Shown here: positions 13,069 through 29,902 of the stretch, piece by piece
Numbering within the stretch: position 1 is the first letter of the stretch
Layout: every line of letters starts with the position of its first letter
Assembly (NCBI RefSeq): GCF_004796535.1
Contig: NZ_SPHY01000003.1
Span: 124,001 to 188,000 of the forward strand
Length of the DNA: 64,000 bases
Source of the DNA: Sphingomonas flavalba
GTDB lineage: Bacteria; Pseudomonadota; Alphaproteobacteria; Sphingomonadales; Sphingomonadaceae
Reading direction: 5' to 3'
Position numbers and translations under genes: made by a program
The notes under the pieces: generated by a model
What the model was told of the DNA's origin: nothing
Seen by the model: only the letters and a program-made list of their open reading frames with translations
Databases searched by the model: none

Positions 13069-13967
13069 TGTCCGCCGTGCGTTCCAGCGGTGTCGAAATG
13101 ATCCCGATTTCGCGGATCACTGTGCTCAACTCGCGGGCGCGCAACAAGCGCCAGCACCGCGAGATCGTCAACAATATCGAGGCCATCGGGCTCAAGCGCC
13201 CGATCACGGTGGCGCGCCATAACGGTCCGGGCGGCGCGCGTTATGATCTGGTCTGCGGCGAAGGCCGGCTCGAAGCCTTCCAGATGCTCGGCCAGAGCGA
13301 GATCCCGGCGGTGGTGATTGAGGCAAGCGAGAGCCAATGCCTGGTGATGAGCCTGGTTGAAAACATTGCCCGGCGCACGCCGCGTCCGATCGACATTATG
13401 CGCGAGATCGGCGCCTTGCGCGCACGGGGCTATAGCGACACGGCGATTGGCGAAAAGCTCGGGGTCGGCGCGTCCTGGGTCAACATGATCGCTTCGCTGC
13501 TCGAACGCGGCGAGGAGCGTCTGGTCGCCGCGGTGGAGACGGGCGTGATCCCGATCACGCTGGCGATGGAGATTTCCAAGGCCGAGAGCGAGGAAGCCCA
13601 GACCCTACTGCTCGACGCCTATGAGACCGGCAAGCTCAGAGGCAAGAAGCTGGCAGCGGCGCGGCGCATGCTCGACATGCGCATGCGCGCGCAGGGCAAG
13701 GGGCTGCCTTCGGGGCGATTGGGCCGCAAAGGCAGCGGGAGGCGGATGACCGCCAATGATCTCATGCAGGTCTATCAGCGCGAGGCGGAAAAGCAGCGGC
13801 TCCTGGTCAAGAAGTCCGATTTCACGCAGACGCGGCTCTTGTTCATTGTCGAGGCGCTCAAAGACCTGCTCACCGACGAGAGCTTTCTTAACCTGCTCAG
13901 AGCCGAGGGCCTGGCGACGATGCCGCGGGCGCTGGCGATGCGGATTTCAGGAGAGCACGATGGCTGA
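13068..13967 (+). CDS. ParB-like nuclease/partition domain protein 1
   Basis: A 299-residue protein with a ParB N-terminal domain (about 10-100): IPISRITVLNSRARNK, a GLKRPITVARHN strand, CGEGRLEAFQ (the ParB box II GERR-like motif in altered form), and VMSLVENIARR (box III). A helix-turn-helix follows (YSDTAIGEKLGVGASWVNMIASLL), then a C-terminal helical part like the RepB C-terminal domain of plasmid partition proteins. It starts with a 1-base overlap with the recombinase and overlaps the next ParB-like gene by 8 bases, so all three are translationally coupled. No ParA is nearby, so classical DNA partition is unlikely. Confidence 0.83.
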   Translation: MSAVRSSGVEMIPISRITVLNSRARNKRQHREIVNNIEAIGLKRPITVARHNGPGGARYDLVCGEGRLEAFQMLGQSEIPAVVIEASESQCLVMSLVENIARRTPRPIDIMREIGALRARGYSDTAIGEKLGVGASWVNMIASLLERGEERLVAAVETGVIPITLAMEISKAESEEAQTLLLDAYETGKLRGKKLAAARRMLDMRMRAQGKGLPSGRLGRKGSGRRMTANDLMQVYQREAEKQRLLVKKSDFTQTRLLFIVEALKDLLTDESFLNLLRAEGLATMPRALAMRISGEHDG

Positions 13968-14889
13968 ACGGATCGACGATCCTGGCGAGCGCATCCATCA
14001 GGCGTTCGAAAGCCAATTTTTGACCATACCCGTCGCAAGCATCGTGCCGCTCAAGACGCTGCCCGATGGCGCGTGCGAAGGCCGAACTTTCGCGCAGGTG
14101 CTCTCCTCGATTAAGGCGGTCGGGCTAATCGAAGCCCCGGCGGTCATGGCCGATACGGCCAAGACCGGATCGTATTTCCTGCTCGATGGGCATTTGCGGA
14201 TCGAAGCGCTCAAAGAGCTTGGCATCGAACAGGTCGAATGCCTGATCGCCACGGACGACGACACCTATACCTATAACAAGCGGGTCAACCGGATCCCGCC
14301 GATCCAGGAGCATCGGATGATCGCGCGGGCCATGGATCGCGGGGTGGCGGCGACCGATATAGCCGAGGCGCTGAACCTGCAGGTAGAATCGGTGATCCGG
14401 CGCTTTCGCCTGCTCGAGGGCATCAGCCCCGAAGCGGCCGAAATGCTCAAGGATACGCCCTGCTCGATGAAGGTATTCGACATTCTGCGGCAGATGTCGG
14501 CGGTGCGGCAGATCGAGGCCGCGGACCTGATGATCGGACAGAACAATTTTTCGATCACGTTCGCCCGCGCCCTTCGCGCAGCGACCCCGGACAATCAGCT
14601 GGCGACAGCCAAGAAAGGTAAGGGCGCCGGCATACCGACGCCGTCCGGCCAGCAGATCGCGCGCATGGAGCGCGAACTGGCGGCGCTGCAAACGCAGGTC
14701 AAATCGGTCGAAGAAACCTATGGGGTCGACAATCTGCATCTGACGGTGGCGCGCGGCTATGTTGCCAAGCTTCTGGCCAATGGCCGGGTGGCGCGCTGGC
14801 TCGCCAGCCACCGGCAGGAGTATCTCGGTGAGTTTGAAAAGATCGCCGAGATCGACACGCTCGCGCCGATGGCCGAGCAGGACGCCTGA
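13960..14889 (+). CDS. ParB-like nuclease/partition domain protein 2
   Basis: A 309-residue protein, related to but divergent from the previous one. It has the ParB fold start (IPVASIVPLKTLP), a YFLLDGHLRIEALKELG segment in the box II position, a helix-turn-helix (ATDIAEALNLQVESVIRRFRLL), then a coiled-coil-like region (QIARMERELAALQTQVKSVEE) and a basic C-terminal part. ATG at 13960 lies 8 bases inside the upstream gene with AGGAGAG just ahead. Two unlike ParB proteins behind one recombinase suggest a heteromeric DNA-binding partner of the recombinase. Confidence 0.83.
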   Translation: MAERIDDPGERIHQAFESQFLTIPVASIVPLKTLPDGACEGRTFAQVLSSIKAVGLIEAPAVMADTAKTGSYFLLDGHLRIEALKELGIEQVECLIATDDDTYTYNKRVNRIPPIQEHRMIARAMDRGVAATDIAEALNLQVESVIRRFRLLEGISPEAAEMLKDTPCSMKVFDILRQMSAVRQIEAADLMIGQNNFSITFARALRAATPDNQLATAKKGKGAGIPTPSGQQIARMERELAALQTQVKSVEETYGVDNLHLTVARGYVAKLLANGRVARWLASHRQEYLGEFEKIAEIDTLAPMAEQDA

Positions 14890-15157
14890 AGCAAACCAAT
14901 GGGGACCCGGACCCGATAAGCGCGGGGACCATGGGAGACGCCGCACTGTGGGGCGGGTCGAGCATGGCGGTGGGAATGGCGGCGAACCCGCAGGAAGCCC
15001 ACCAGGCTGGCCGCCATCAGGTCCAGCCGCCCCGCGGAAGCACCACAAGCTCCCGCATCACAGATCGGCGTGTCGGAGACGCCATCCGGCACGCCGATCG
15101 ATCACAACAGTGGAAGTGCCGAGGGGCCGTAGGCCTGACGTCGAGCCTTCTCCAGCC

Positions 15158-18100
15158 TCATGTCGCAGCGACAGTGGCCACGTGCTCTCCAGAACGCCCG
15201 TCCTCTGCGGGATTGGCGACGGCAACTAGGTCGAACTCCTCTCGGCCCTTCACCTTGTCGACCAACAACTCTCTCTCGGTCCTTATTGCCTCTGCTCGTG
15301 CCGACGGATTCTGCACAATAGTCAGTTGGGCTTGACTGCGCCCTGCCGCGTCAAAGCTGATCCTATATATGTGATATCGTTCGCCAAGATTGTTGGCGGC
15401 AACCCACTCGTTGTCCGAAAATCGCACGCTACCGGACTTCGTCTCGATGAACCGGCTGACCAGATCGATCCGATCCGGATCCTTCTGGAATTCGGCGCAA
15501 TCCTCTTCACTATCAAAGGAGAGATAGTCGCACCCAAAAGCTCTCGATCCTTGCAGGTGAGCAACGAGCAGAGGCCAGCGGCCGTCGGCGCGCTCGAACG
15601 CCGCTGTCCAATGCTCCGCATCGGCGGCACGGTTGGGGTCAGAGCCATTTTGACTTGGAACGTGACCTGTAGGCCCCGCGACCCGTAGCGTTCGGCGAGG
15701 GAAGATCGCGCGCGCCTGTGATGAATTGTTCTGCGGCTGCCGCTGATGAACGGATAGCTCCACCTCGGAAGGGTCAGATTCGCTTGATACATGGTTCGGG
15801 ACGCGATCGAGCTCATCACCCCCACTATCTCCCATCGAAGCGGTTGCCGTTCCGCGCGAATTTGTTCGGGCCGGAGCAGGACCCGAAGCCAAGGTCTCGG
15901 CATCTACGTCCGGCGCAAACGGTGAAACAAACGCCTGATCAACGCCACCGATCAACGAGGCAAGTTCGTCCTCGCTAAGTGAAGGCAGAGCACGTTGGAG
16001 ATGGGCACGACGCAATGCATCGGTCGAAGAAGTCAGGAATGGCACGAAATCTGCGCCGCTCTGCAGCTCAAAAAGCTCAGCAAGCCCATCCGCTATTGCA
16101 TGGCATCCGAGATCCATCATTTCCTCGAAAGAGCCCGAATCGTCGACCGTTATGATCATCGCGTCATCATCGAAGCTGTGACGCCATGGGTCCAACTCCT
16201 CTACAATCTTAGCATCATCGATCGCGAGTTCCATTTCGGCGCGGCGCGCGACTTTGAGCTGAACCGCTTCGAAGCGGCGCAGGTGAGTGCCGTCGGGAGA
16301 TAAAGCCTTACGCAGCGCCATTATGTAAGGCTTGGAATCACGGAACCGCGAACGTAGAGCTATCGAATCTCCCTCCTCCACCTCGTCCAGCGAGCAAATT
16401 CTCAGATTGAGGGCATCCTTCTGCAAGGTTGCAACACCGAAACGTGCCAGGACCTGTTTGGCATTCCGACGAGATGGCAGATCGAGGAGGCGCAGGTGTG
16501 GCTTTGCAGCCGAAGGGAAGTCATCACGCTGAGCGTAGTAAACGCCCTCACGATCAGCCCAAACTCGTCGTCCTTCCAGTTGGATAGGCAGTTGGCCCTT
16601 GGCCCGAAAGGCGATTCCGTCCGCCCCTCCAAGTTCGGGATCGAATGTTTCGCGCTCCAAGATTTGCAGGAAGAGCCTGCTGCCGACCTCTGGCTTTATC
16701 TGCCGTGACGGAAGCGAAGAAAGGAGCCGGTAGACGTGTGGTTCTGGGAGATCATCAAGATTGCGAACGACACCGGCACGCTCCAGACCTCGCCGCCAAT
16801 GAGCTTTGTCCAGGCCGAACTCCAGCTCGCTCGACGAATTGGCTGCACGTGGTGCCTGGAACAGCGCGGAAAGAACTCCTGGTTCGATCATTGTGTCTCG
16901 GGGCGCGTGACGCTGGCCGTCTTGGCAATCGAGCCATGCGCTCGTCTGGATATCGAGATGAACCGTGTTGGGCAGAGTGCCCTCGTATGTTCGAAACTTC
17001 GACAACCCATTATCTCGGGCTTCTAGCTGCACAGCAAAGGTCGGAACGGGCACAAGCGGGTCGAGACGCGGATCTTGGGCAAGCCACGCCAGAATTGCTT
17101 CTGACGGTGCGCCGCTGAGAATTCGGTCAAGCGCCTCAACAGTGTCGTGAGTTGCTTTGGCCGTATAGCCCCAAGACAAGTCCGACCGCTTGACCTCTCT
17201 CGACGTGTTTCCGTCGGTGACCTGAACGGTCTCAGGCAGCGTGTCGACTATCGATTGACGCCATTTCTCTGGCAAAGGCTCTGTAATTCTCCGCGGCCAT
17301 GGATTGATCCCCAGCCACACGAGGAAATCTGCCAAGTCATCCGGCTCTTCGCTAAATCCATTCTCCTGTGGTGTGCCGATGAGCAGCTCCGGCTGACCGG
17401 AATAAAGAGCCGCCGTAGTTCGCCCGACTTTTCCGTAATTCTCAGAGAGGTGTACGGTTGTGATGTCATGCCATTGCCCGTCTTTGCATCGCACCCGAAA
17501 GATCCCTTGTGGTCTGTTCCGCGTCCGGTCATGCAAGGAATAAACGGTAGCCAGCAAACTTGCTTGCAGGTGATCAGGATTGCTTCGGTTCTTCTTTAAG
17601 AGTTCCGAAACTCTGCTGCGAATCGCCGAAATAACGGCCTCCGCACTATATTCGACGACCCGAAATCCCCTAAGCGCGTGGATTTTATCGCGGACAACGT
17701 TTCCCGACACCTCAGCCAGAAGTTCGGACCAAAGCTCTGGATGGATAAACCGCGCGTTTGCCCAATCGGGAAGCCCATGCCGCTTAGCTTCATCGGCGGG
17801 AGGCGGAAATGCCGTGGCTGTCGAAGGCATCTCCTTACCCTTTATGTCGATCAGTAGACGCCGATCATGTTTGTCTTCGGGAAAGGTCTTCGCAATGCCC
17901 ACAATCGCTTTTGCGCGCTCCGAGAAGCTGAGATCGGCGCTCCGAAGCGTACTAATAATGTCTTTTGTGTCGACCATTGGCACACCGAGTTCGTGCCTAA
18001 GAAGGGCCTCGGTGTTGGCGGCCTTGATCCGGGCAAGTTGGCCGAAAAGCCGTGGCGGAAGGTATTCAGCATATCGGACCGGACCAATTCGTGCATTGAC

Positions 18101-19387
18101 GGCTTTACGCCAAGCACCATCCATGCATTGCACGATAGGCAGGTCTCTTGCCCGTAGCCACGCTGCCTCTGAAACTGGTTTCAGCGCATCGGGAAATTCC
18201 TGATGCGCAATGAGCCAGTTCAACGGCTCGGAAATGCGGGCCGATTTACGGAGTTCGGCCAACATTTCGGCGTGAAGACGACCAAGGGCCTCCAGCACCT
18301 CGTTGTTGTGCTGCGAATTTTCATTGATGGTCTTGCGGCTAGAGTCGAGTTCCAGCGTAGCGTGAAAGAGGCCAGAAAAGGGTAGCGGCAGAGAGGTCGG
18401 GAAGAAGCTGTGCAGTTTGCCCGGCTTGTTCGTTTCATCGCTCCTAATAGCTATGGCGAGCTCGAATTCCCGTTCGTTCTCGCCCTCTCCAATAGATCCC
18501 ATCTGTTGCCTGACGATCCAATCCTGTGTGCTGGTATCTGGGCCACATTCGAGCCATAGCGATACATCGCCATTGTCCTTCAACTCTTTGATCCAGCACT
18601 TCTCATCACAGTCCGGGACCCGAATACGGATCTCTTCCAGCGCCCGGACAAACAAAAGAAAACTGGGCTGGAATTGGCCTGCTTGCTCGATAGCGCGCTT
18701 TAATGCACTGGCGCTCCCGAGAGGCGCTGCAATGACCGTATCGTAGCCATCTTGGCGAAGTTTACGGGCATACTGCACCACGGTCTGCGTACCGCACTCG
18801 AGAGTCTCCAGTTCCGTGCCGGCAGCAGGAAATACGAGCAACGGCGGCAAGTTGGGATTGGCCCCGCTGAAGTTGGCCGCAATCTCGGCGTTCTGGCGCG
18901 CCAGTTTGGCAACCACTGCACGCGCATGGGTTCGCGAAAATCCCAACTCAAGAGCACCGCTACTGACGATCGGGGCCTCGGTCCAATTCAGGATCGCACG
19001 AAATCCTAAGCCTTTTGCGCCGATCATCCGCGCGGCGCGGGTCGGCTTGTCGCTGGTATGGGCGGTCATTAACGACGCTACACCACCTCTGCGGAACGGC
19101 TGCCCGGTGTTGGCTACATAAAGGGCCTCCTGCGTCACCTCGATCAGGACCCGTCCAGAGCCGCCCATTTCACTGGCGGCGTCTGCCGCATTCTGAACAA
19201 GCTCCAAGAGTTCGCGGCCGGCATAATCTGCCGTAGTCTGCTGTTCGGTGCGTGAATGCCCTAAAAGAAAGGCCGGCTTCTCAAGATACGCCTTACACGT
19301 CGATTGAAGCTCGGCGTCAATGAACGCAGCCCAAGCCTCACCTGTCATATGCGCCTCTTCGGCTCCAGCATTCCTTTTTTGGTTCAT
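15158..19387 (-). CDS. Giant GHKL (sacsin/HSP90-like) ATPase with C-terminal DUF3883
   Basis: A protein of 1409 residues (or 1396 if it begins at the ATG at 19348). The N-terminal 250 residues form a GHKL ATPase: the N-box ELLELVQNAADAA near 61-73, VANTGQPF (the G1-type DxGxG region in altered form) and the lid IGAKGLGFRAI near 119-129, close to sacsin and HSP90. The centre is long and unassigned. Residues of about 1265-1355 match DUF3883 (NO VEIN C-terminal): a GCDYLSFDSE strand, RFIETKSG and NEWVAANNLGERYHIYRI, which includes the E-x-K of a PD-(D/E)XK-like nuclease fold. Proteins of this build occur in defence islands. It is separate from, but codirectional with, the DUF4357 and TM0106-like genes upstream. 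Confidence 0.82.
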   Translation of the reverse strand: MNQKRNAGAEEAHMTGEAWAAFIDAELQSTCKAYLEKPAFLLGHSRTEQQTTADYAGRELLELVQNAADAASEMGGSGRVLIEVTQEALYVANTGQPFRRGGVASLMTAHTSDKPTRAARMIGAKGLGFRAILNWTEAPIVSSGALELGFSRTHARAVVAKLARQNAEIAANFSGANPNLPPLLVFPAAGTELETLECGTQTVVQYARKLRQDGYDTVIAAPLGSASALKRAIEQAGQFQPSFLLFVRALEEIRIRVPDCDEKCWIKELKDNGDVSLWLECGPDTSTQDWIVRQQMGSIGEGENEREFELAIAIRSDETNKPGKLHSFFPTSLPLPFSGLFHATLELDSSRKTINENSQHNNEVLEALGRLHAEMLAELRKSARISEPLNWLIAHQEFPDALKPVSEAAWLRARDLPIVQCMDGAWRKAVNARIGPVRYAEYLPPRLFGQLARIKAANTEALLRHELGVPMVDTKDIISTLRSADLSFSERAKAIVGIAKTFPEDKHDRRLLIDIKGKEMPSTATAFPPPADEAKRHGLPDWANARFIHPELWSELLAEVSGNVVRDKIHALRGFRVVEYSAEAVISAIRSRVSELLKKNRSNPDHLQASLLATVYSLHDRTRNRPQGIFRVRCKDGQWHDITTVHLSENYGKVGRTTAALYSGQPELLIGTPQENGFSEEPDDLADFLVWLGINPWPRRITEPLPEKWRQSIVDTLPETVQVTDGNTSREVKRSDLSWGYTAKATHDTVEALDRILSGAPSEAILAWLAQDPRLDPLVPVPTFAVQLEARDNGLSKFRTYEGTLPNTVHLDIQTSAWLDCQDGQRHAPRDTMIEPGVLSALFQAPRAANSSSELEFGLDKAHWRRGLERAGVVRNLDDLPEPHVYRLLSSLPSRQIKPEVGSRLFLQILERETFDPELGGADGIAFRAKGQLPIQLEGRRVWADREGVYYAQRDDFPSAAKPHLRLLDLPSRRNAKQVLARFGVATLQKDALNLRICSLDEVEEGDSIALRSRFRDSKPYIMALRKALSPDGTHLRRFEAVQLKVARRAEMELAIDDAKIVEELDPWRHSFDDDAMIITVDDSGSFEEMMDLGCHAIADGLAELFELQSGADFVPFLTSSTDALRRAHLQRALPSLSEDELASLIGGVDQAFVSPFAPDVDAETLASGPAPARTNSRGTATASMGDSGGDELDRVPNHVSSESDPSEVELSVHQRQPQNNSSQARAIFPRRTLRVAGPTGHVPSQNGSDPNRAADAEHWTAAFERADGRWPLLVAHLQGSRAFGCDYLSFDSEEDCAEFQKDPDRIDLVSRFIETKSGSVRFSDNEWVAANNLGERYHIYRISFDAAGRSQAQLTIVQNPSARAEAIRTERELLVDKVKGREEFDLVAVANPAEDGRSGEHVATVAAT

Positions 19388-19481
19388 GGCTTCGTGCGCG
19401 TCCGATCTGTTCTACATAAAACCTATTGGCGGTCCATTTTCCCTCAGGACCTAATTCGCCCAAACATCACGAATTGGACCA

Positions 19482-19811
19482 CTAGCCGAATACGTCCTTG
19501 ATCGTCTTTCCGTCATTTGGCCGGCTCCAGCTCTGGGGCCCGCTGCAATTGCCGTCCTTGACAATTCCACCAGCGACACTCGAGCTGCCGAAGAGATGGT
19601 CGCGCGAAAAGCGGTACAAGTCCGGATCAGTATCCGGCACGAGGACCCCCTGCCGCACCAACCGGTCCCGCTCCTCGCGATCCCGCTTCACACGCGGGGT
19701 GCCTTCCCGCATTGCCGTTGACCCCTTGCGGACCAGGAAACCCTCGGCCTCAGGGCGGCCATAGGCTTGAGCTTTCTGCGGACGCATCACAAACCAGTCG
19801 TTGTCGCTCAT
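19482..19811 (-). CDS. DUF4357-domain protein
   Basis: A 109-residue protein matching DUF4357: EGFLVRKGSTA, a charged helix (RVKRDREERDRLVRQGVL), then YRFSRDHLFGSSSVAGGIV and a SWSRPNDGKTIKDVF end. DUF4357 is often fused to or next to nucleases such as GIY-YIG proteins and is taken as an accessory DNA-binding module. Its ATG overlaps the TGA of the TM0106-like gene by 4 bases (ATGA), so the two are translated together. Confidence 0.8.
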   Translation of the reverse strand: MSDNDWFVMRPQKAQAYGRPEAEGFLVRKGSTAMREGTPRVKRDREERDRLVRQGVLVPDTDPDLYRFSRDHLFGSSSVAGGIVKDGNCSGPQSWSRPNDGKTIKDVFG

Positions 19812-22800
19812 GGATTTCTTCCTTCGATTTGTGTGAATTCAGGCAATGCACATAGCGTGTTGACGAGGCGCATCTGTTCAACGGTGTTGCATTTTGCTTC
19901 GCGCAGCCGCGGCGCCCCGAAGACGAGCGCCAGGCCTTTGGCGCGCGAGACAGCGACGTTGATGCGGTTGAGCGAGAACAGGAAATCCATGCCGCGCGGG
20001 GTTTCCTCGACCGAGGAGGCGGTCATGGACACCAGGCAGACGGGTGCTTCCTGCCCCTGGAACTTGTCGACCGTGCCGACACGAATGCCAGCGGGCAACG
20101 CGTCCTGCAGAGCATTGACCTGCGCATTATAGGGCGCAACGACGATGATATCAGCGGGCTCAAGGGCGCGCGTTGTCCCATCCTTATCGGTCCAGGTTCC
20201 CGTGAGCAGATCGTCGATCGCCGCCTGAATGGCAGCCACTTCCTCGGTCGCGATCTGGGCATTGCCCTCATGGACGACCGGCACCCAGAAAGCGCCAGCT
20301 TCCGGAAAGCCTGTTCCCCGGACGGCCTGGACGGCTGTATCGGGTGCGCTGTTGAGACGGCCTTCATAGACCTGCCGCGAAATAAACCCGCAGACATCGG
20401 GATGCATACGGCGCGAGACCGGCAGGAAGATGCCGCGATCCGGCGGGATGGTGGCGTGATCGCCCAGCATCCACTCGAGACAGGAAAGGTTGGCCGGATC
20501 GGGATGGGCACCCTGGATGACCTGCGGCAATTGCCGCGGATCGCCGACCAAAACGATGTTGCGCGCGCAGCGCCCCATGGCGACCATATTGGCCAGCCCC
20601 ACTTGCCCGGCTTCATCGATGAAGAGCCAGTCGAGCGCCTGCTCGTGCTCGGATCGGGCAAAAAAGAAGGCGGTGCCGCCGACCACATGGGCGCGGCTCC
20701 AGAGGGTATCGTCATTGGCCGTCGAGCGGATGACGCCGGTACAGTCGTCCGGATAACCGTCTTCGCCGCTGCTGACCTTGTGCCCGATGCACAGGCCCGG
20801 GACAGGATCGCCATCATCTTGCGCGGCAAGACACCCCATCAGCACATTGCGGATCGCCTCATGGCTGTTCGAGGCCACGCCAACACGGTGCCCCTGGCGC
20901 ACCAGCGCAAGGATTGCCCGCGCGGTGACATAGGTCTTGCCGGTTCCCGGCGGCCCCTGGATCGGCAGCACGGTGCCATCCATGGCGGCGATCGCCGCGA
21001 TCGTGCCGGTCAGGGGATCGGCGCCATCGAGCAGGTCGGCGCGCGGTCCCGTCACCAGACGCGGGGCCGTGCGCGCGAGCAGATCATCGAGCGCGGTCAG
21101 GCGGCGCGCACCGCATTGATCCTCGATCACATCGCGCAGGGCCCCTGCAATGACGTCCGTATTGAGCGGCCAGTCCGGGTGGAGCGTCAGGCGATCGGTC
21201 AAAAGATGCGCCTTGGCCGCCCCTGCCTTGACCGCGATGATCCGCTCGGAGCGGTCGAGCTCTTCGATGCTGACCGTGGCCGGCGGTCCGTCGATGACCG
21301 GGACCGTCGCTTTGCGGCCGGCCCGCAGCTTGGTCTCCTGGAGCGGAAAGCGATAACGGCGCAGCACCGAGCGTTTGACGGGTTCTGCCGGATCAATGGC
21401 TTCCAGACCGGCCAGTGCATCGAGATCGTCGATCAGCTCGTCCTCGTCCTTGCCGGCGCTGTCGAAAACCGCCCATTGTGCCGGCTTAGCCTCGCGCTTG
21501 TGGAACAGGCCGAGGTTGAACAACATGTCTTGCCGCTCCTGCGGCAGACCGGATGCGGCAAGCTTCGCGCGCAATGCCTGCGTATCGGCGTCCTCCTCGA
21601 CTTCCTTGTCGCCGGCATCCACCGCCAGCATCGGCCAAGGCGCGACGGGGCGGATGCTCACCAACCAGCCGCGCAGCTCCTCGGTCGAGATACAGTCGAC
21701 GCGGTTATACTCTTCGATCTCGTCGAGGATCGATTGTTCGCCGGTTTCGCGCCAGCGCTCATAGGCAACGACCGAGCCGCCGGCGGTCTTCACCTCACCT
21801 TCGCGCACCCGGCCATAGAAGGCTTCCATCGACTTGATCGAGTAATTGGCTTCCGAGCCGATCAGCGCGCCGCGCACTACCGCGAAAAGATCGACAAAGC
21901 GTCGCTCGCGCAGCAGGCGATCGAGAAAGGCCTCGCCGATTCCATATTGTGCGGTCAGCCGCCGCAAGGCGGTGATCTCATAGGGTGCATAGTGATAGAT
22001 GCGCGCTTCAGGATAGGCCGCGAGCCTTTGCCGGAAAAATTCCAGAAGGTCCGCCAAGGCCCGCGCTTCGGCGCCATGGTCATGCGCCCAGAAAGCCTTG
22101 AACTGGCCGTCGAACCAGACGCCGTGGAGATATTCGAGGCCACCTTCGTAGTGCGGATCGCCCTCGATATCGTAGAAAAGATCGCCCGGCTGCGGCGCGG
22201 GCAAAAGATCAAAGCCCTTGCCGGGTTCGGCCTCGCGCAACTCGAAGGCCGGTGCCCCGGTCTTGCGGGCGTGCTGCAGGCGCGCCTGTGTCACTAGCCG
22301 CGCCCGGGTGGTCTCGGCCATGCCGCGGATGGGATGATCGAGCCCGGCCAGCCGCTCCATGGTGGTGATGCCAGCCGCCTCGAGTTTCTTGACCTGGGTC
22401 CGGGTAATATTGGCGACGTTGAACAGGCTGTCCTCGGCCTGCCACTGGCTTTCGCAGTGTTCACCCCAGCGGCACAGTCCACAATCGGCGCAAGGGATCG
22501 GCCGGGTCGGCGCCGGGTTTTCCAGGAAAGCCTCGAGCCGCTGACGCGCCATGCGCGCATAGGCCTGATAGTCCGCCAGCCGTAGCTGCGCTCTGCTGCC
22601 ATCACCGAGTTCGACATGGGCAAATTCAGGGGCGATGCCCTGGATCTCGGTCAGCAAATCCGAGTAGAGCACCAGTTGCAGCACATGTTTGGGATGGGGC
22701 CGTCGCTTGAGCTTGGTGTCAGTGACTTCGTAGCTGAAGGGACCGAGATCCGACGGGCGCTCGACGCGCTCGAGAAAGTCCGACCAACCGCCCCAATTGT

Positions 22801-23116
22801 CGCCCAGCAGCGCCCCCTGAAAGACGATCTGCGGCCCGCTTGCCAAAGCCGCCCGGGTTGCCTGCGCATTTTCGGCAAGGTCGGACCGGTCGATTTCGAT
22901 CACCGACACATCCGATGCCTTGAGCTTGGCCAGATGAGCAGCTTCGTGGGCATCACCCTGCTTCTGGAGCAGCGCGGCATCCTCGGTATCTTCGCGCGGC
23001 ACTGGCCCCTTGCCATGCATATAGGCGAGATCGAGCCTGGTCGCGTGAGCGCAGCCCATGAACCGCATCAGATCCGATGCGGACAAGAGTATCCGATCCC
23101 CCTCAATAGTTCGCAT
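19808..23116 (-). CDS. TM0106-like RecB nuclease-SF1 helicase
   Basis: A protein of 1102 residues when started at the ATG at 23116, which follows a purine-rich GAGGGGG and gives the family-like start (ILLSASDLMRFMGC). A longer start at 23173 is possible. Order of parts: a RecB-like PD-(D/E)XK region (1-205), a Cys cluster with CADCGLC near 207 and a further Cys after WGEH, an RNase H-like exonuclease domain starting FYDIEGDP near 311, then an SF1B helicase with GPPGTGKT near 716, FIDEAGQ near 829, GDPRQLPQV and FQGQEAPV. This matches the TM0106 family and Dna2-like end-processing enzymes. It is divergent from a WYL regulator 118 bases away and translationally coupled to DUF4357. Confidence 0.85.
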   Translation of the reverse strand: MRTIEGDRILLSASDLMRFMGCAHATRLDLAYMHGKGPVPREDTEDAALLQKQGDAHEAAHLAKLKASDVSVIEIDRSDLAENAQATRAALASGPQIVFQGALLGDNWGGWSDFLERVERPSDLGPFSYEVTDTKLKRRPHPKHVLQLVLYSDLLTEIQGIAPEFAHVELGDGSRAQLRLADYQAYARMARQRLEAFLENPAPTRPIPCADCGLCRWGEHCESQWQAEDSLFNVANITRTQVKKLEAAGITTMERLAGLDHPIRGMAETTRARLVTQARLQHARKTGAPAFELREAEPGKGFDLLPAPQPGDLFYDIEGDPHYEGGLEYLHGVWFDGQFKAFWAHDHGAEARALADLLEFFRQRLAAYPEARIYHYAPYEITALRRLTAQYGIGEAFLDRLLRERRFVDLFAVVRGALIGSEANYSIKSMEAFYGRVREGEVKTAGGSVVAYERWRETGEQSILDEIEEYNRVDCISTEELRGWLVSIRPVAPWPMLAVDAGDKEVEEDADTQALRAKLAASGLPQERQDMLFNLGLFHKREAKPAQWAVFDSAGKDEDELIDDLDALAGLEAIDPAEPVKRSVLRRYRFPLQETKLRAGRKATVPVIDGPPATVSIEELDRSERIIAVKAGAAKAHLLTDRLTLHPDWPLNTDVIAGALRDVIEDQCGARRLTALDDLLARTAPRLVTGPRADLLDGADPLTGTIAAIAAMDGTVLPIQGPPGTGKTYVTARAILALVRQGHRVGVASNSHEAIRNVLMGCLAAQDDGDPVPGLCIGHKVSSGEDGYPDDCTGVIRSTANDDTLWSRAHVVGGTAFFFARSEHEQALDWLFIDEAGQVGLANMVAMGRCARNIVLVGDPRQLPQVIQGAHPDPANLSCLEWMLGDHATIPPDRGIFLPVSRRMHPDVCGFISRQVYEGRLNSAPDTAVQAVRGTGFPEAGAFWVPVVHEGNAQIATEEVAAIQAAIDDLLTGTWTDKDGTTRALEPADIIVVAPYNAQVNALQDALPAGIRVGTVDKFQGQEAPVCLVSMTASSVEETPRGMDFLFSLNRINVAVSRAKGLALVFGAPRLREAKCNTVEQMRLVNTLCALPEFTQIEGRNP

Positions 23117-23234
23117 TACCGCCCCCTCGTCGAACGCAACCTGCAACAAGACTTGCATCTCGACAGATTGCACGTTCAGCCATAGCGTGCGTGGGTGTCA
23201 ATATCTGACATAGTCTGTAACCAGGATTTGGATC

Positions 23235-24218
23235 ATGTCGTTCGCCAAGGCTCAGGACCTGATCAGGCTGGCGCGTCTGGCCGCCACGCGGCGGACGGGA
23301 ATCGGCCTTGATGAGATCTGCGAGGAATTCGGCGTTTCGCATCGCACGGCGCAGCGCATGACTGATGCGCTGGAGACCGTGTTCACCAATGTTGAGGCGG
23401 TGGATGGCGACGACCGTCGGCGGCGCTGGCGTGTCGCCGACACCATGCTCGACCGGCTCCAGACCCGCCAGGAAACGGCGGTCGAAGCGCTGGAGATCGC
23501 CGGACGAACGGCGCGCGGCGATGGCCGGCTACGCCACGCGGCGGCCCTTGAAGACCTGCGCGACGGATTGCTGGCGCGGCTGACTCCAAAGGATGCGCTG
23601 CGCACCGAAGCTGATGTCGAGGCGGTCCTGCTGGCAATGGGTTCGGTGACGCGCCCCGGCCCGCGCGTCAATCTGGCGCCGGCGGTGCTCGATGCCGTGA
23701 TCGAGGGACTGCGCGGCCCGTTTCGTCTGCGGTTGCGTTATCGGGACGAGGATGCGCCTGAGCGGATCATCGAGCCGTACGGGCTCCTGCTGGGCCATCG
23801 CAGCTACCTGGTGGCGCGCCAGCCGGCGCGCGGCGAAGACATTCTGAACTTCCGGATGGACCAGATCCTGAGCGCCCAAACCCTGGATGAGAGCTTCAGC
23901 CTGATGCCCGGTTTTTCGCTGAAGGATTATGCGGCGCAATCCTTCGGCGTCTACCAGGGCCCGGCGCAATATGACGAGGTCATCTGGCGGTTTGCGCCGC
24001 ACGCCGCAGCAAGGGCGGCCGAATTCTGCTTTCACCCAAAGCAAACCGTTGAGGTGCAAGAAGATGGCGGGCTTATCGTGCGCTTTCACGCGGCGGGCTG
24101 GCTCGAAATGGCGTGGCATCTCTATCAATGGGGCGATGCGGTTGAGGTTATCGCGCCCCAGGGGCTGCGCACGCTGGTCGAAAATTACCGCAGGAGCGAT
24201 TTTGGCGCCCTGCCATAA
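23235..24218 (+). CDS. WYL-domain transcriptional regulator
   Basis: A 327-residue protein. The N-terminal winged helix-turn-helix (about 5-70) reads IGLDEICEEFGVSHRTAQRM with a DDRRRRWRV wing. The WYL domain (about 150-240) has LRGPFRLRLRYR, a GLLLGHRSYLVAR segment in place of the W-Y-L core, and FRMDQI; a WCX-like extension follows with WRFAPHAAARAAEF and WLEMAWHLYQWG. WYL proteins regulate defence genes and often sense nucleic acid. It is divergent from the nuclease-helicase and followed 20 bases later by the HEPN gene. Confidence 0.87.
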   Translation: MSFAKAQDLIRLARLAATRRTGIGLDEICEEFGVSHRTAQRMTDALETVFTNVEAVDGDDRRRRWRVADTMLDRLQTRQETAVEALEIAGRTARGDGRLRHAAALEDLRDGLLARLTPKDALRTEADVEAVLLAMGSVTRPGPRVNLAPAVLDAVIEGLRGPFRLRLRYRDEDAPERIIEPYGLLLGHRSYLVARQPARGEDILNFRMDQILSAQTLDESFSLMPGFSLKDYAAQSFGVYQGPAQYDEVIWRFAPHAAARAAEFCFHPKQTVEVQEDGGLIVRFHAAGWLEMAWHLYQWGDAVEVIAPQGLRTLVENYRRSDFGALP

Positions 24219-24238
24219 GGCAACAGGAACGAAGCGGA

Positions 24239-24910
24239 ATGACCAAAAAGACCGGCCTCACACATGCAGAACTGAAAACCAAGCAGCGCGCGATCCGCGA
24301 AGGCTTTCCGCAAACGATGGGCCTGCGCGTCCATCGCGCTATCAGCTGGATCGGCCGCGCCGAGGCCTGCGGAACCGACGACGACGCCAAATTCATCTTC
24401 TTATGGATCGCGTTCAACGCCGCGTATGCCGACGAAGGCGAATTCCAGACCATCCAGCCGGGCGAACGCGCCGCTTTCGCAGACTTCTTCGGAAAGTTGA
24501 TCGACCTCGACGAGCAGCGTCGTATCTATGGGGCAATCTGGCAGCGCTTTTCCGGACCGGTACGACTGCTGATGGAGAACCGCTACGTCTTCAATCCGTT
24601 CTGGCAGCACCATAACGGGATTGCCGGCTTCGAGGATTGGGAAGAGCGTTTCAAAGCCTCCTCCCGCGCCTTCGCGCAGGCCATCCAGAGCGGTGATACC
24701 AAGCGCGTGCTCAGCTTCGTCTTCGACCGGCTATATGTGTTGCGCAACCAGCTCGTTCATGGCGGCTCGACCTGGAACAGCGGCATCAACCGCACCCAGG
24801 TCCGCGATGGCGCGGCGATCCTCGGCTTCCTGATGCCCGTCTTCACCGACCTGATGATGGACAATCCCGAGAAGGACTGGGGCAAGCCCTTCTATCCGGT
24901 CGTTCCTTGA
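24239..24910 (+). CDS. HEPN-domain protein, candidate ribonuclease
   Basis: A 223-residue all-helical protein with a HEPN active-site motif R-N-x3-H: RNQLVHGG with Arg169, Asn170 and His174, in the C-terminal third as in other RNA-cutting HEPN proteins. The N-terminal half has an aromatic-rich helix (KFIFLWIAFNAAYADE) as in HEPN proteins of the Apea type. It begins 20 bases after the WYL gene, so the two are likely cotranscribed. There is no MNT-type nucleotidyltransferase antitoxin nearby. Probable role: RNA cleavage in an abortive response, by inference. Confidence 0.8.
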   Translation: MTKKTGLTHAELKTKQRAIREGFPQTMGLRVHRAISWIGRAEACGTDDDAKFIFLWIAFNAAYADEGEFQTIQPGERAAFADFFGKLIDLDEQRRIYGAIWQRFSGPVRLLMENRYVFNPFWQHHNGIAGFEDWEERFKASSRAFAQAIQSGDTKRVLSFVFDRLYVLRNQLVHGGSTWNSGINRTQVRDGAAILGFLMPVFTDLMMDNPEKDWGKPFYPVVP

Positions 24911-24949: not shown

Positions 24950-26743
24950 TTATCCAGCAGTCGCAAAGGAGAACGGCCGCATGTATCGGCCGCTGGTCTG
25001 GAAGATGCCTGAGGAAATATGCTGGAGGCGAGAGATCGTCGGATTGGTAAGTTCGGACACATGATAGGGGATGATCACATGGGCTTGGGCGCGTGAGATC
25101 GCCACATTGATCAGCCGATCACCTTCCTTCCCACGGAGAAAACTGGACGTTGCGTCGACCGGATCAAAAATGATCACCTTGCGCTCGCTACCCTGCGCGC
25201 GATGGACTGTACTGACGGAGATCGTCGGGTGCCGGCGCTTCAGGAAACTCCTGATCAGGGTCCGTTGCGCACGGAAAGGCGTAAGGATCAGAACGTCATC
25301 CGCATCGATGTAAGAGCCAGCGAGATGATCAATAATCGTCTCAACCATTTTGGCCGACTGAAAACGGATGAAGCCGCCGTAATTCTGCGAATATTGGTAG
25401 GGTTCCGACACTTGCTCGAAACACACGCGCGGCACTTCACGCCCGTTCACGAAATACGGACTGCGGTACATCTTCCAGGCCTTGTCCCGCCGAGCTTTGC
25501 GGCAAACCGTCAGCTCGCCATTGTAGAAGGTTCTGCTCACTGCATGGCAAATCCCCATGGCCATACGGGACTGCTCGTTCAGAAACGTGGTGGGCGCGTG
25601 GGCAAATAGATCAAAGGCAGTCTTCGCGAGGAGATTCCGATGGACCTGCCCCTCAGACTGGACGATCGGCGAAAGCTGCTTGGGATCGCCGGCAAAAATC
25701 GTTTGCTGCCCCAGCGCCGGAACCATGAGGGCCGCCGGCCCGATTATCTGACTGGCTTCGTCGCAGATGACGAACGGCCATGGCCCTGCGGCCTTCAAGA
25801 CATGATGCCACTTGATCGCCGTGGCGACAGTGATCCCTACAACACGGGCGCTATGGGCGACGCTTTCGATATCCGCGCCAAGCTCCTTGCGTGCAGCCGC
25901 GAGGCGATCCTTCCATCTGACATATTCGGCAATCTTGCTTTTTGATGGTTCGGATGCCTCCAAAAGCAGAAATCCCGTGACTTTCTGGTCCAGTCCGGCG
26001 GCCAGAAGATGGGGGCGGTCAACATATTTGCGCGGATCGAAATGCGCGCCGACCCGCTTCATCTGCTTGGCGATGTCGGGGCGCCCGGCTTTGGCCAACC
26101 AGTCATCGATGGACAGGAGAGCCGTGTCCACCGCCACGTTGGTCGGGCCGATCACCAATATGCGCGCTTTGCTGAACCGCCGCAGAAGATAAGTGCCCAG
26201 CGCGCCAACCGTAAACGTCTTGCCGGTTCCGGGCGGGCCAATCACCACCGAGCACCGGTATGCGGCATTTCGAACGGCAGTTTTCTGCCGCTCGCGCAGC
26301 TCGTCGAATTCAGGACCAAGCGGACGAATTTGCTGAAGCGGTTCGGTTTCTTCTTTGGACTGGCGCAATCGCTTCGCCGCCAGCTTGCCCATTTCCCCGC
26401 CCCACATATCGATAAGCGGGCCAAGAAAATCTCCGGGGAACAGCCAAAGTGTGTCGCCAATGTTGGGCTGCCCGCCGGTAGCCGGCAACACAATGATGCG
26501 CTCGAGGTCCGCATCGACGACCTTGATCAAGCCTGCATATTCAAGTTCCGCACCCCATTTGACACGCACGCCTTCCAAGGCTTCGTCAATGGCGACACGG
26601 TTACGGCCTTTGAGCGGCTTGACGCTCAAAACCAGATAGTGCTCCTCCCAGAAAACGGAGGCGACCTCCAAGCCCCCGCCCTTCTGAGTGAGACGACGTT
26701 CTGCTTCCAAAGCAGTCTGTATGGATTGTCGGGTAATCGCCAT
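24950..26743 (-). CDS. SF1B DNA/RNA helicase (Dna2/Upf1-like AAA ATPase)
   Basis: A 597-residue helicase. After an N-terminal beta-rich region (1-140) come the Q-like segment LRERQKTAVRNA, Walker A GPPGTGKT near 168, Walker B ICDEASQI near 324, GDPKQLSPI, then the second RecA lobe with ILTPFRAQRTLIRSFL, VSTVHRAQGSE and LINVAISRAQAHVII. No nuclease domain is visible. It begins 54 bases after the Res gene on the same strand and could be the last gene of that operon; it converges on the HEPN gene with 39 bases between stops. Assignment to the restriction-like operon is inference. Confidence 0.83.
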   Translation of the reverse strand: MAITRQSIQTALEAERRLTQKGGGLEVASVFWEEHYLVLSVKPLKGRNRVAIDEALEGVRVKWGAELEYAGLIKVVDADLERIIVLPATGGQPNIGDTLWLFPGDFLGPLIDMWGGEMGKLAAKRLRQSKEETEPLQQIRPLGPEFDELRERQKTAVRNAAYRCSVVIGPPGTGKTFTVGALGTYLLRRFSKARILVIGPTNVAVDTALLSIDDWLAKAGRPDIAKQMKRVGAHFDPRKYVDRPHLLAAGLDQKVTGFLLLEASEPSKSKIAEYVRWKDRLAAARKELGADIESVAHSARVVGITVATAIKWHHVLKAAGPWPFVICDEASQIIGPAALMVPALGQQTIFAGDPKQLSPIVQSEGQVHRNLLAKTAFDLFAHAPTTFLNEQSRMAMGICHAVSRTFYNGELTVCRKARRDKAWKMYRSPYFVNGREVPRVCFEQVSEPYQYSQNYGGFIRFQSAKMVETIIDHLAGSYIDADDVLILTPFRAQRTLIRSFLKRRHPTISVSTVHRAQGSERKVIIFDPVDATSSFLRGKEGDRLINVAISRAQAHVIIPYHVSELTNPTISRLQHISSGIFQTSGRYMRPFSFATAG

Positions 26744-26797
26744 GAGTCGGTCAGACCACCAACTTCAATGCGCGAGAACCCACCCCGCCCCCATTCG

Positions 26798-29700
26798 TCA
26801 TGCAGTAACGCCCACGACCTCCATCAACTTCCCATAGTCGGTAACAACGTCATATTTGACGCGATCTTCAGTCACCTGCCGGCTGATCTCATCAAAGAAC
26901 TTGCGGGCACACGCGATCTTCGTGTTCTCAATCTCCCGCAGCTTCATAGACGACATCGTGCCCTTCGTTTCCGCGACGAAGTAGATGTGCCTGACGCTGC
27001 CGGCCCTGAACGAAAGAGCCCAGTCAGGGTTGTAATCGCCAACGGGGGTCGGGATCAGGAAACCGCGCGGCAATTTGGCGTAGACGACGACTTCGCTGCT
27101 CGTATCGAGCTCTTTGACGAACGCCCGTTCCACATCCGAGTCCGTGATCGCGTAATCATAGACATGATTCTTGAGCTTCGCTGTGGCGCGCGAGAAATCC
27201 TGCCCGGTCTGATTGGCGGTGAAGATGTCGACATCGTACCTTTCATCGACTTCGTCATAGGCCAGACGCTCAATTACCATGGCGGCCTTCTGTTCGGCGA
27301 TGATGCGCGAAGCCTCGGAGATGAAGTGCTCGGGGTTGCTCTTGAACTGCCCGAAAATCGCAGTCTCGATTTGGCCAAGGATCGTCGCGGCCGTGTCACG
27401 TGTCAGCTGTGCGTTTTCAGCCAGCTTCCCGACGAGGTCGTACTTCACCAGCGAGTGGATCGAGTCCCCCTGCTGGGTAGTCGTGTTCGTGACGGTGAAG
27501 CCGTCGCCCTCGCGAAGCTGGTCGTCGATCAAACCGTCATTCTGCACACCAACCTGCACGGTGTATTGCAGCGGGGTAACCCGCAGCTGGCTATCCAGCG
27601 CGCTGATGCACTTGCGGATCAACTCCGCAGAATCGAATTCGACCCGATAGACCGCCTTGCGATTGATCCGCTTCCAAAGTTCCTGGAATTCTTTCTTCTC
27701 GAAGTTTGCATTGAGCGGATTGGTCTTGGGCTTGCGGCCATCGCCGATGTCCGGAAGCTGGGACTCGCTGAAGACACCATCGATGAGTCCGAATACCTGC
27801 TCGGCGTGAGGCTTCAGCTCATCGGGTAGCTCAGCCAATGTTCCTGCCGCTTTGGCGTTGTGATAGGCGTCGGCGATCTGGTCGGCATCATCGGTGTAGT
27901 CGTTCTTCACCAGATAGCGGTAGATCTGTTTGGCCATTGCGGCGCTCACCTCGACCGGACCTTGTTCGGTCGTGATCGTCTTGCCGGTGAAATAAGCCTC
28001 AGTCGCCCGCCGCGGACGCGACGACAGGGTTTCGGCAATCTCCTTCTGAAGGCCGGCAACGAAATTCTTGTAGCTTTCGCTCGCCACAACGGTCAGCACA
28101 TTGATGTCGTGCACGACGGCCGGATGGTCCATCCGGTCTCCATGCTGGTCAACGCTCAGCCGAAGGCCGCGCCCAACTTCCTGGCGGCGGGAAATGGTGT
28201 TGTCACTGTGCTTGAGCATGCACATGACGAAGACATTTGGATTGTCCCACCCCTCGCGTAGCGCCGAGTGCGAGAAGATGAACCGCGTGGGTTCAGCGAA
28301 GGACAGCAGTCGTTCCTTATCCTTCAGGATCAGGTCGTAGGCATCGACGTCATCAGAATCGACTGACCGGGCGCCGACCGCTGGGTCCTTCAGACGGTTC
28401 GTTTTTTTGTCGATCGAGAAATAGCCGTTGTGGGTTTTGGCCGGATCGATCCCGGCAAGGTACTTTCGGTATGCCTCGTTATCGATCGCAAGTTCCGCAA
28501 GGTACTCGTCCTTCAGCAGCTCATATTCTTCCTCGAAGACGCGAGCGTATTCGCCTTTCTCGTCGGCCTGGCCGTAATCCCGGTACTTCACGACCTCGTC
28601 GATGAAGAAAAGTGACAAGACCTTGATGTCCTGTGCAAACAGCTGCTTTTCCTTGTCGAGATGGGCCTTGATCGTCTCGCGGATCTGAATGCGGCGGATA
28701 TCGCGCTCGGAGACGTCGCCATTGGCCTCACCAGCGTTCAGCACCACGCCGTTGGTGAATTCGACCGTGTCGTTGACGGCGTCGATCTGGCTGATCGTGA
28801 ACCCACGATACTGGTCCAGCTCGCCCGACTCCACGAACAGGTCGTCGCGGAACTCGAGTCGCCGTAGCTGGCGCTTGATCTCGCCTGACTTCAGCTTCAC
28901 CTCTAGCTCGATCCGGGCGACAGGCGCCTTCTTCGAAATGTCGATACCTTCCAGGTAGAGATAGGCATTGGTGCCGGACAGACCGCGAGTCTGGATGCCG
29001 CGCACCGCGATCTTCTTGACCAGCTTCTGGTTGAAGGCGTCGAGCGCATCCAGCCTGTGAACCCGGTTGTGCTGGGTACGGTGGGTCGCCGAATAGCGTA
29101 GGATGAACAGCGGCTTAAATTTCGGCAGCGCCTCCATCGTCGCCGCGCCTTCCATCTTTTGCGGCTCGTCCAGAATCAGGATCGGCCGGTTCGAGGCAAT
29201 CACGTCGATGGGCTTGCGCGATTGGAAATCATCCAGTTCCTCGTAGATGCGGCGGTTGTCGGCCCCACGCGCGTTGAACGCCTGGATGTTGATGATCATC
29301 ACGTTGATCCCGGCATCCGAAGAAAAGCTCTCCAGCTCATGCAGGCGCTTGGAGTTGTAGATGAAGAACCGCGCCTTCTTGCCGTAGCTCTCGGTGAAGT
29401 GCTCGGCCGTGATCTGCAGCGACTTGTAGACCCCTTCGCGGATAGCGATCGACGGCACCATGATGATGAACTTCGACCAGCCATAGCGCTTGTTCATCTC
29501 GAAGATGGTCTTAATGTAGCAATAGGTCTTGCCCGTGCCGGTCTCCATCTCGACGTCGAGATGGACTCGGGTGGCGGCAAGCGCATCGCGCCTGTAGGCC
29601 GCCGGAACGGGCACGCGCTCCCCGCGGGCGTTGAAGGTAGTGAAATCCGTCAGCGATTGTGAGACGGGCAGGTTCTGCCGCCGCTGGACCTTCTGGATGT

Positions 29701-29893: not shown

Positions 29894-29902
29894 GGCGCGC
29901 CC

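Follow-up and report, generated by a model that had tools for sequence, protein, structure and literature searches.

A probable WYL-controlled modular defence locus built around a DriD-like regulator and a divergent TM0106-family nuclease-helicase

Tiamat (TmtA) has been described as a single gene. CoCoNuTs of types II and III, in the excerpted report, join McrBC and a UPF1-like helicase, mostly with HEPN as well. Dna2 and the RecB/Cas4 nuclease-helicases combine nuclease and helicase domains. Among WYL regulators, excerpts of the published work on DriD from C. crescentus describe an ssDNA-activated regulator of DNA-damage genes, and excerpts on CapW and BrxR describe repressors that control CBASS or BREX defence loci from palindromic operators; CapW is reported to repress in both directions from a palindrome that lies over the -10 in its defence promoter.

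The window (the whole stretch of 64,000 nucleotides from Sphingomonas flavalba that we analyzed) contains the following five adjacent genes:

15158-19387, minus strand: a TmtA/Tiamat-family giant with a sacsin-type GHKL ATPase and a C-terminal NOV_C/DUF3883-like domain; the main part of the exchangeable cassette.
19482-19811, minus strand: a DUF4357 protein (PF14267, E = 4e-11); the first gene of the exchangeable cassette.
19808-23116, minus strand: a TM0106-family nuclease-helicase (NH) with a Cys-rich RecB/Cas4-like nuclease, a DEDD exonuclease, and an SF1B helicase similar to Dna2 and UPF1; the reading frame is open from a GTG at 23173.
23235-24218, plus strand: a DriD-like WYL regulator (wHTH, WYL, WCX).
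24239-24910, plus strand: a probable HEPN-type RNase directly after the WYL gene; the predicted toxin arm.

We think that these genes probably belong to a WYL-controlled, modular anti-phage or anti-plasmid locus on a mobile element, whose core is the DriD-like regulator and the divergent NH. The sequence-only reading had grouped the five reading frames by their defence-type domains, and all are present at these coordinates and on these strands. Its proposal that DUF4357 and NH are translationally coupled agrees with the ATGA stop/start overlap that we read at their junction, and the WYL and HEPN frames (23235-24218 and 24239-24910, plus strand) do adjoin NH (19808-23173, minus strand) and diverge from it. 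NH likely starts at the ATG at 23116 rather than at the GTG at 23173, because the annotated gene from R. daejeonense begins at the equivalent codon.

To see which of these genes stay together, we scanned genomes for NH and found at least 590 stretches. We kept the best 80 of 583 relatives, which gave 79 genome loci, so all of the shares below concern the closest relatives of NH only. We considered loci to be close if NH was at least 64% identical. The counts out of 31 or 36 cover these genome loci and no plasmid loci, and loci with under 2.5 kb upstream or under 2 kb downstream of NH are left out of the counts that concern that side. Within the best 79 loci, WYL is divergent from NH in 26 of the 31 close loci with enough upstream sequence (the other 5 lack WYL), and HEPN lies just behind WYL in 18 of 31, with one more on the opposite strand, another downstream of NH, and TIR in one locus; the association is not accidental. 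If NH is under 48% identical, then the association with WYL is almost gone (2 of 23 among the same 79). Downstream of NH, 26 of 31 close loci from this set carry a named cassette (15 McrBC, 6 TmtA, 3 SbcCD, and 3 sacsin-type GHKL, with two cassettes in one locus) and 5 carry none, where the classes were defined after viewing the loci, and each assignment relied on similarity to reference sequences drawn from these same loci.

Read as one fixed system of five genes, the earlier proposal was not supported. Among the best 79 loci, the full set is present in just 2 of 36 close loci (L031 and L076; some of the 36 are cut by contig ends), TmtA is already known and is replaced elsewhere by McrBC, SbcCD, or other GHKL giants, and HEPN can be replaced by TIR, so we rejected a fixed five-gene system. 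In L031 all five genes are collinear with the window (74.5% identity over 9.77 kb), and in a Roseovarius locus (L024) the set includes a TmtA from a different subfamily and a HEPN that is truncated. Judging from the loci compared, the constant core is the divergent pair of WYL and NH, and the natural unit differs from the five-gene proposal.

The alignments also show that the modules on either side of WYL-NH are exchanged at gene borders. In Chelativorans (L028), DNA identity to the window is 94.9% from 24910 to 19836 (HEPN-WYL-NH), then breaks, and then resumes at 88.6% from 15152 to 14176. McrBC stands in place of DUF4357-TmtA between the two homologous stretches, and both ends of the swap are visible. 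In R. daejeonense (L006), NH is 96% identical, McrBC follows it, TIR replaces HEPN, and homology stops at the WYL stop codon. Many loci retain the order and strands of the genes, as well as the spacing between stop and start codons. On the NH tree, there were at least 11 cassette changes across 37 labelled tips (9 of the 46 tips, with "cut" or "other" cassettes, were omitted), while shuffled labels gave 12-18 changes (mean 16.3). Because the labels are partly clustered on the tree, exchange is frequent but not free. AU tests, which omitted the long branches L055, L050, and L047 and in which the group of the window with L031 and L076 was named after the tree was seen, rejected one-clade trees for the TmtA loci and for the McrBC loci. 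Because we picked the plasmid loci (L002, L003, L004, and L022) for their HEPN, pooled counts on the tree set lean towards HEPN.

PADLOC already lists TmtA (Tiamat) as a defence family, which the sequence-only reading did not recognise, and the giant matches its profile at E = 1.5e-269. The best stretch pairs residues 15-1148 of 1409 with profile positions 5-1140 of 1538, and the C-terminal part lies outside it. The giant also matches NF047352, the ATP-binding domain from the N terminus of sacsin (E = 5.9e-20), and its NOV_C (DUF3883) match is slightly below the Pfam cut-off (20 vs. 22.1 bits). A D..ETK motif in the C-terminal part (D99, E127, and K129 of the C-terminal construct) is aligned among relatives and is degenerate in L035. 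The model of this part (pLDDT 70.4) has PD-(D/E)XK-type structural neighbours (among the top rows are Hjc, the SPARDA nuclease, DpnI, RecU, and tRNA-splicing endonucleases, with Z of 5-6.9). Unlike Tiamat as described, TmtA here stands with DUF4357 behind NH as a cassette that can be swapped, under a WYL box (see below), which suggests that Tiamat can act alongside a partner dedicated to DNA degradation. We considered DUF4357 as a partner for TmtA only and discarded this, because DUF4357 precedes McrBC as well, in L029 and L110.

McrBC is the commonest cassette behind NH, and this resembles the McrBC, UPF1-like helicase, and HEPN of the CoCoNuTs as far as the excerpts describe them. However, two McrB proteins from cassettes (L022 and L002) have the canonical NxxD motif (MNTAD) instead of the NxD of CoCoNuTs, and their McrC partners keep D..DTK. 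Also, the helicase here shares one protein with RecB and DEDD nucleases, and WYL and the exchange of modules are extra. With MNTAD in these two proteins and no McrB in the window, we do not assign the locus to the CoCoNuTs.

NH matches TIGR03491 (TM0106 RecB-like nuclease) at E = 4.5e-79 and 266.6 bits, vs. a curated cut-off of 97.45, and its Pfam matches are RNase_H_2 (2.2e-25) and AAA_12 (2.6e-23), with an AAA_11/12 helicase. Its catalytic residues are retained in 91-92 of 92 aligned relatives. Like Dna2 and the RecB/Cas4 enzymes, it has a Cys-cluster RecB nuclease and an SF1B helicase (the helicase part matches DNA2 and UPF1 in the PDB), but it has an additional DEDD exonuclease domain and keeps company with WYL and defence modules. 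NH might act by itself, since in a P. seriniphilus locus (L112) WYL and NH are present but neither a cassette nor HEPN is annotated. We know of no anti-phage assay of this locus. A literature search with the term TM0106 matched only papers on corrosion, and searches for this gene combination had no match among open-licence papers; given that scope, this is no proof of absence.

The HEPN gene (24239-24910) has no match in Pfam, PADLOC, or NCBIfam, and many of its plasmid relatives are annotated as "HEPN domain-containing protein." Its RNQLVH motif belongs to the R-x4-6-H class: R169, N170, and H174 (R169-x4-H174) are invariant in 26 aligned rows, which were picked by hand from the HEPN matches. 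For the AF2 model (pLDDT 85.6), HEPN toxins rank first and second in VIA, with modest scores (8xeh, Z = 6.6, and 8xdj, Z = 5.2), and Foldseek gave none at E ≤ 0.001. With this gene next to those predicted to attack DNA, the idea that genes for attack on DNA and on RNA share one locus is supported. The window also contains, 17 kb away, a gene that we predict to be a second effector under WYL control:

6521-7321, plus strand: a DUF1883-TIR gene (Pfam DUF1883, 8.3e-36; TIR_2, 9.9e-19).

The TIR effector is likely an NADase. In the Chelativorans genome, a 97.7% identical copy follows a WYL box.

The WYL regulator has Pfam matches to WYL (1.9e-9) and WCX (2.1e-12), and its best PDB matches are DriD structures (9pfq and 8tp8, residues 3-316, E about 2e-46). 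It fits the DriD-type layout of wHTH-3HB-WYL-WCX, with the wHTH and 3HB covered by the DriD alignment alone. Similarity over residues 3-316, the WYL-WCX order, the divergent operon, and a site (here a putative one) over the -35 are all shared with DriD. It differs in standing in defence loci, in its site (the DriD site in the published excerpts has another sequence), and in its groove. R177, R189, R195, R207, and Y191 are invariant in 30 aligned rows, but of the two conserved arginines that were tested in PafB, the counterpart of one is kept (R207) and that of the other (position 210) varies among Q, R, and L. Kinship to DriD makes nucleic-acid sensing by WYL plausible, and the varying arginine makes ssDNA uncertain as its ligand.

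The candidate control site, which we call the WYL box, occurs twice in the window (vs. 0 in 100 shuffles). Promoter elements are called by resemblance only:

23194-23210, minus strand: WYL box TGTCAGATATTGACACC, a 17-bp pseudo-palindrome in the promoter region between the divergent WYL and NH genes; it overlaps a -35-like hexamer (TTGACA) and is 24 bp from the WYL start.
23182-23186, minus strand: a conserved GCTAT, -10-like, at a fixed spacing from the WYL box and pointing into NH; part of a 33-bp profile of 25 distinct sites.
6405-6421, plus strand: second WYL box TGACACGTTTTGACACC, preceding the TIR gene.

The 3.07-Mb genome has three WYL boxes, all within 29 kb, and the reversed control has none. 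The third precedes a transposase remnant (apparently IS3-type, from our reading of the translation) and no clear gene. Among close loci, the 700 bp upstream of NH contain a box in 32 of the 37 that have WYL vs. 1 of the 6 that lack it; the strict box is absent next to the WYL start in 6 of 39 WYL loci (NH ≥60%). It also precedes TIR in L106-L108, L006, and L060, a TIR-like stretch in L109, and SbcD in L152, L154 (the same as L057), and, more weakly, L002. Three WYL relatives that we inspected, which are beside AddAB-like, SbcCD, or exonuclease genes and not NH, still carry it. No box was found at a 76%-identical TIR (L157), a single case, from a genome outside the group that has this WYL. Across 10 relatives there were 44 matches vs. 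5 for the reversed pattern, so part of the 44 is due to chance, and some are at no obvious promoter. In 12 genomes without a close divergent WYL at the NH locus, there were 15 matches vs. 3 reversed. The 33-bp profile, which recovers its 25 training sites by construction, had 58 matches in 1.43 Mb (counting L154, in the L057 contig, twice) and 0 in the reversed sequence. The TIR box in the window lacks the NH-type -10 spacing and is not recognised by the profile (score 3.2). As to the earlier idea of one WYL switch over the locus, these matches support its control-site part: a putative WYL-associated site is common to many loci.

We propose that the cassette, an NTPase with a nuclease, would recognise foreign DNA and cut it first. 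TmtA, with its GHKL ATPase and nuclease-like DUF3883 domain, would play this part in the window. NH, as a Dna2-like protein with two nucleases and a helicase, would then unwind and degrade the DNA from its ends. Fragments of ssDNA or other nucleic acid would bind WYL, which would act at the box over the -35 of NH and raise NH, the cassette, and TIR. If the attack on DNA fails, then HEPN (as an RNase) and TIR would stop the cell as a suicidal arm. On conjugative elements, the portable site and core pair would bring together known but separately described weapons (Tiamat, McrBC, SbcCD, HEPN, and TIR) as a putative regulon. Searching for the box as a simple pattern should reveal new effectors, and with the box one could directly test whether DNA fragments from the attack induce defence genes.

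It is unlikely that this is an ordinary defence island, in which Tiamat, a HEPN toxin, a nuclease-helicase, and type III R-M cluster on a mobile element without a shared function. Such an island would account for the other R-M genes at 26798-36722, for the 5 of 31 close genome loci (among the best 79) with no named cassette, and for relatives that occur apart from the core: the TmtA relatives in L113 and L114 have no NH, WYL, or HEPN annotated within 9 kb, and a HEPN relative in Acinetobacter (L005) has no NH within 12 kb. However, order, strand, and stop/start spacing are kept and the swaps fall at gene borders of a constant WYL-NH pair, and the box recurs before NH, TIR, and SbcD with only three copies in this genome. 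We give a similarly low probability to NH-WYL being a DNA-repair or stress-response unit that recruits defence genes and mainly maintains mobile elements. The resemblance of NH to Dna2, the control of the DNA-damage response by DriD (in the excerpted report), and L112 with its bare core all fit this, but among the best 79 loci the pair recurs with restriction enzymes and with effectors of the suicide type (McrBC, TmtA, HEPN, and TIR).

How WYL would act in the modular locus is a separate question. There is a substantial chance, if somewhat under even, that it is a repressor of the BrxR/CapW type that leaves the box on binding its ligand, and not a DriD-type activator; this is compatible with our main proposal. 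The reported repression by CapW and BrxR in the excerpts, and the 24 bp between box and WYL start, favour a repressor. But none of the five PDB matches is named BrxR or CapW, the three alignments that we viewed are all to DriD, and by resemblance the box overlaps the -35-like hexamer as in DriD and not the -10 as in the CapW excerpts. We are more doubtful of WYL-NH as a mobile immune hub, in which ssDNA from degradation would bind a DriD-like activator, raise NH and the cassette, and switch on HEPN or TIR suicide effectors that have a box of their own elsewhere on the element. If this is true, then new weapons would join the immune regulon simply by acquiring a box.

Because we found no homologue at the corresponding position next to WYL-NH in any locus that we compared, and there is no WYL box there, we left out of the locus two neighbours that the sequence-only reading did not mention: an SF1 helicase (24950-26743) and then a type III-like R-M operon (26798-36722), which directly follow the five genes.

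All five open reading frames that the sequence-only reading had grouped as a defence locus exist in the window and carry the domains it had named, and the coupling it claimed between the nuclease-helicase and DUF4357 genes is visible as an ATGA overlap:

15158-19387 (-), TmtA, a giant protein of the TmtA/sacsin-GHKL type
19482-19811 (-), DUF4357 protein
19808-23116 (-), NH, a TM0106-family nuclease-helicase
23235-24218 (+), WYL, a DriD-like regulator divergent from NH
24239-24910 (+), HEPN-like protein

HEPN is a putative assignment, based on an R-x4-H motif that is invariant in 26 aligned rows, on the HEPN annotation of relatives, and on a modest fold match of the predicted structure (a Foldseek search with this model gave no significant match).

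We propose that WYL and NH form a core to which other modules are attached on both sides. Our genome scan used an alignment of five NH proteins, and we considered the best 79 loci of 583 relatives. Of these, 36 have NH identity of at least 64%, and 31 of the 36 have at least 2.5 kb of upstream sequence. Among those 31, WYL is divergent from NH in 26, HEPN lies directly behind WYL on the same strand in 18, and TIR is found in one. (In two more of the 31, HEPN is on the opposite strand in one and downstream of NH in the other.) Downstream, 31 loci at this identity among the best 79 have at least 2 kb after NH, and 26 of them have a recognised cassette, with classes set by similarity to reference sequences drawn from the same loci: McrBC in 15 (one with a GHKL giant too), TmtA in six, SbcCD in three, and a sacsin-type GHKL protein alone in two. 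The other five have none of these. The conserved neighbourhood expected for the five genes holds for WYL and NH; the cassette varies. Profile checks confirmed the TmtA class for three loci (L035, L024, and L046); L077 was likewise confirmed to have a sacsin domain, and L022 and L004 to have McrC and SbcCD-type domains. Below 48% NH identity, again among the best 79, WYL is present in 2/23 loci and McrBC still follows NH in 8/24. The pooled table adds the window and 12 plasmid loci, four of which were chosen for carrying HEPN. All parts except a small ORF and the HEPN subfamily fall in described profile families; we did not find the WYL-NH core, its box, or the two-sided cassette exchange in the open-licence papers that we searched. 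Tiamat is reportedly described as a single gene.

Between WYL and NH lies the element CaTGtCAGAaATTGACACCC-N6-GCTA. Its WYL box is a pseudo-palindrome, TGTCA-N5-TGACA, that overlaps a TTGACA hexamer, and the -10-like GCTA is at a constant distance from this hexamer. The window holds two copies of the 17-bp core (TGHCANNNNNTGWCACC), versus none in 100 shuffles, and the 3.07-Mb genome holds three, on a single contig and within 29 kb; the reversed pattern has no match in this genome. At NH identity of at least 64%, 32/37 loci with WYL have the core in the 700 bp upstream of NH, but only 1/6 without WYL do; at 48-64% identity, the counts are 3/8 and 0/6, and below 48%, 0/3 and 0/22. The reversed pattern is absent from these segments. 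Across 92 loci, 35 of 53 core matches are at the 5' end of WYL. In 10 relatives the pattern has 44 matches versus 5 for its reverse, and 12 genomes whose NH has no close WYL gave 15 versus 3, so isolated matches elsewhere mean little.

Other copies precede predicted effector or cassette genes. The second box in the window (6405-6421, +) precedes a DUF1883-TIR gene (6521-7321), an arrangement shared by Chelativorans, whose TIR is 97.7% identical to the window's. Extra boxes precede TIR genes after WYL in L106-L108, L006, and L060, and an unannotated TIR-like stretch in L109. Boxes also precede SbcD in L152 and L154/L057, with a weaker match in L002. Box and TIR are both retained by two WYL relatives whose neighbours are AddAB-like or SbcCD genes instead of NH, and also by a third that adjoins exonuclease genes. 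A 76% TIR, in one genome outside those with this WYL, has no box. In Agrobacterium (L108, 3040-8837), WYL-TIR adjoins a divergent AddAB-like pair (PD-(D/E)XK nuclease and UvrD helicase), a WYL switch joined to a different DNA-degrading machine. At L149 10226 (G000 contig C23:118226), an orphan box with its leader immediately precedes a remnant resembling a transposase, which may have taken the place of an effector gene. In the window (23159-23166, -) and relatives, a second conserved leader element, CTGTCGAG, lies downstream of the box, and in many relatives GCGATTC comes next; upstream of the TIR genes in the window and L150, this element gives way to a CTGTC..GACAG inverted repeat and then GATTC.

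The closest sequence relative of WYL in the PDB is DriD (structure 8TP8, so identified in PMC11804915). As described in PMC12340889, DriD is activated by ssDNA and targets its own divergent operon at a site over the -35. In PafB, Arg211 and Arg214 are required for ssDNA (PMC11804915); of their counterparts in WYL, as we infer them, only the first is constant, so ssDNA is uncertain as the ligand here. By its kinship to DriD, WYL may act by a similar mechanism.

Module exchange is seen in Chelativorans (L028). Its first block of alignment to the window (94.9%) runs from 24910, where HEPN stops, to 19836, which is 28 bases short of the point where the NH stop codon ends. Alignment restarts immediately beyond the stop of TmtA, at 15152 (88.6%); in between, L028 has McrBC genes plus about 2 kb of other sequence. 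In R. daejeonense (L006) and Rhizobium (L060), only the stretch from roughly the stop of WYL to the end of NH aligns to the window, and these loci have TIR at one flank and McrBC at the opposite one. Conversely, all five genes of the window are collinear with L031 (74.5%); NH (77%) and WYL (70%) are less close there than DUF4357 (90%) and TmtA (81%). A tree built from 46 NH proteins nests the window in a group whose other members carry McrBC. The 37 labelled tips require no fewer than 11 changes of cassette, versus 12-18 in 200 shuffles of the labels, so cassettes are partly inherited and often replaced. With 43 rows, trees were rejected that placed all TmtA loci (p = 3e-7) or all McrBC loci (p = 1e-49) in one group, or that united the window, L031, and L076 (p = 2e-66).

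NH has PDB relatives in DNA2 and UPF1. Its RecB D..D-K..Q..Y residues, DEDD acids, Walker motifs, and four cysteines (three C-terminal, one N-terminal) are kept in 91-92 of 92 NH proteins, so, judged by its catalytic residues, NH is expected to combine an active helicase and two nucleases. The cassettes (McrBC, SbcCD, TmtA) share a make-up of NTPase plus nuclease, the nuclease of TmtA being a putative one. The two McrBC cassettes examined have the McrB MNTAD and McrC D..DTK motifs. TmtA combines GHKL and a DUF3883-like domain, and the structures closest to its C-terminal model include Hjc, the SPARDA nuclease, DpnI, and RecU (Z 5-6.9). PMC3710099 terms DUF3883 "a novel REase domain".

A small ORF of about 90-120 codons often lies between WYL and NH (L022 10477-10845 and L003 10581-10850; also L030, L035, L042-L045, L048, L056, and L112). 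Two copies had no Pfam match and one had no NCBIfam match. In several such loci, where this ORF parts NH from WYL, the box is repeated before NH. Relatives from Sphingobium, Qipengyuania, and Novosphingobium have a small free-standing DUF3883 (NOV_C) gene behind HEPN (L004 12673-13506, L026 4844-5701, L038 8058-8891), possibly a HEPN-nuclease pair.

Around the locus we found:

11500-14889, upstream, serine recombinase and two ParB/RepB-like genes
26798-36722, downstream, type III-like R-M operon that includes another WYL gene
after this operon, conjugation genes of the TrbF/G/I (VirB8/9/10) type

At 51.2-60.0 kb, the window matches sphingomonad ribosomal-protein operons at about 80%. This setting suggests an integrative conjugative element within the chromosome of a sphingomonad-like bacterium. 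An SF1 helicase (24950-26743) precedes the R-M operon, and together they span 24950-36722. The operon comprises Res, Mod, DUF4391, a large Snf2 helicase that matches the PADLOC model C3a139 (HKD+Snf2), and the second WYL gene. With DUF4391 placed between Mod and the Snf2 helicase, these genes may form a composite that recurs elsewhere.
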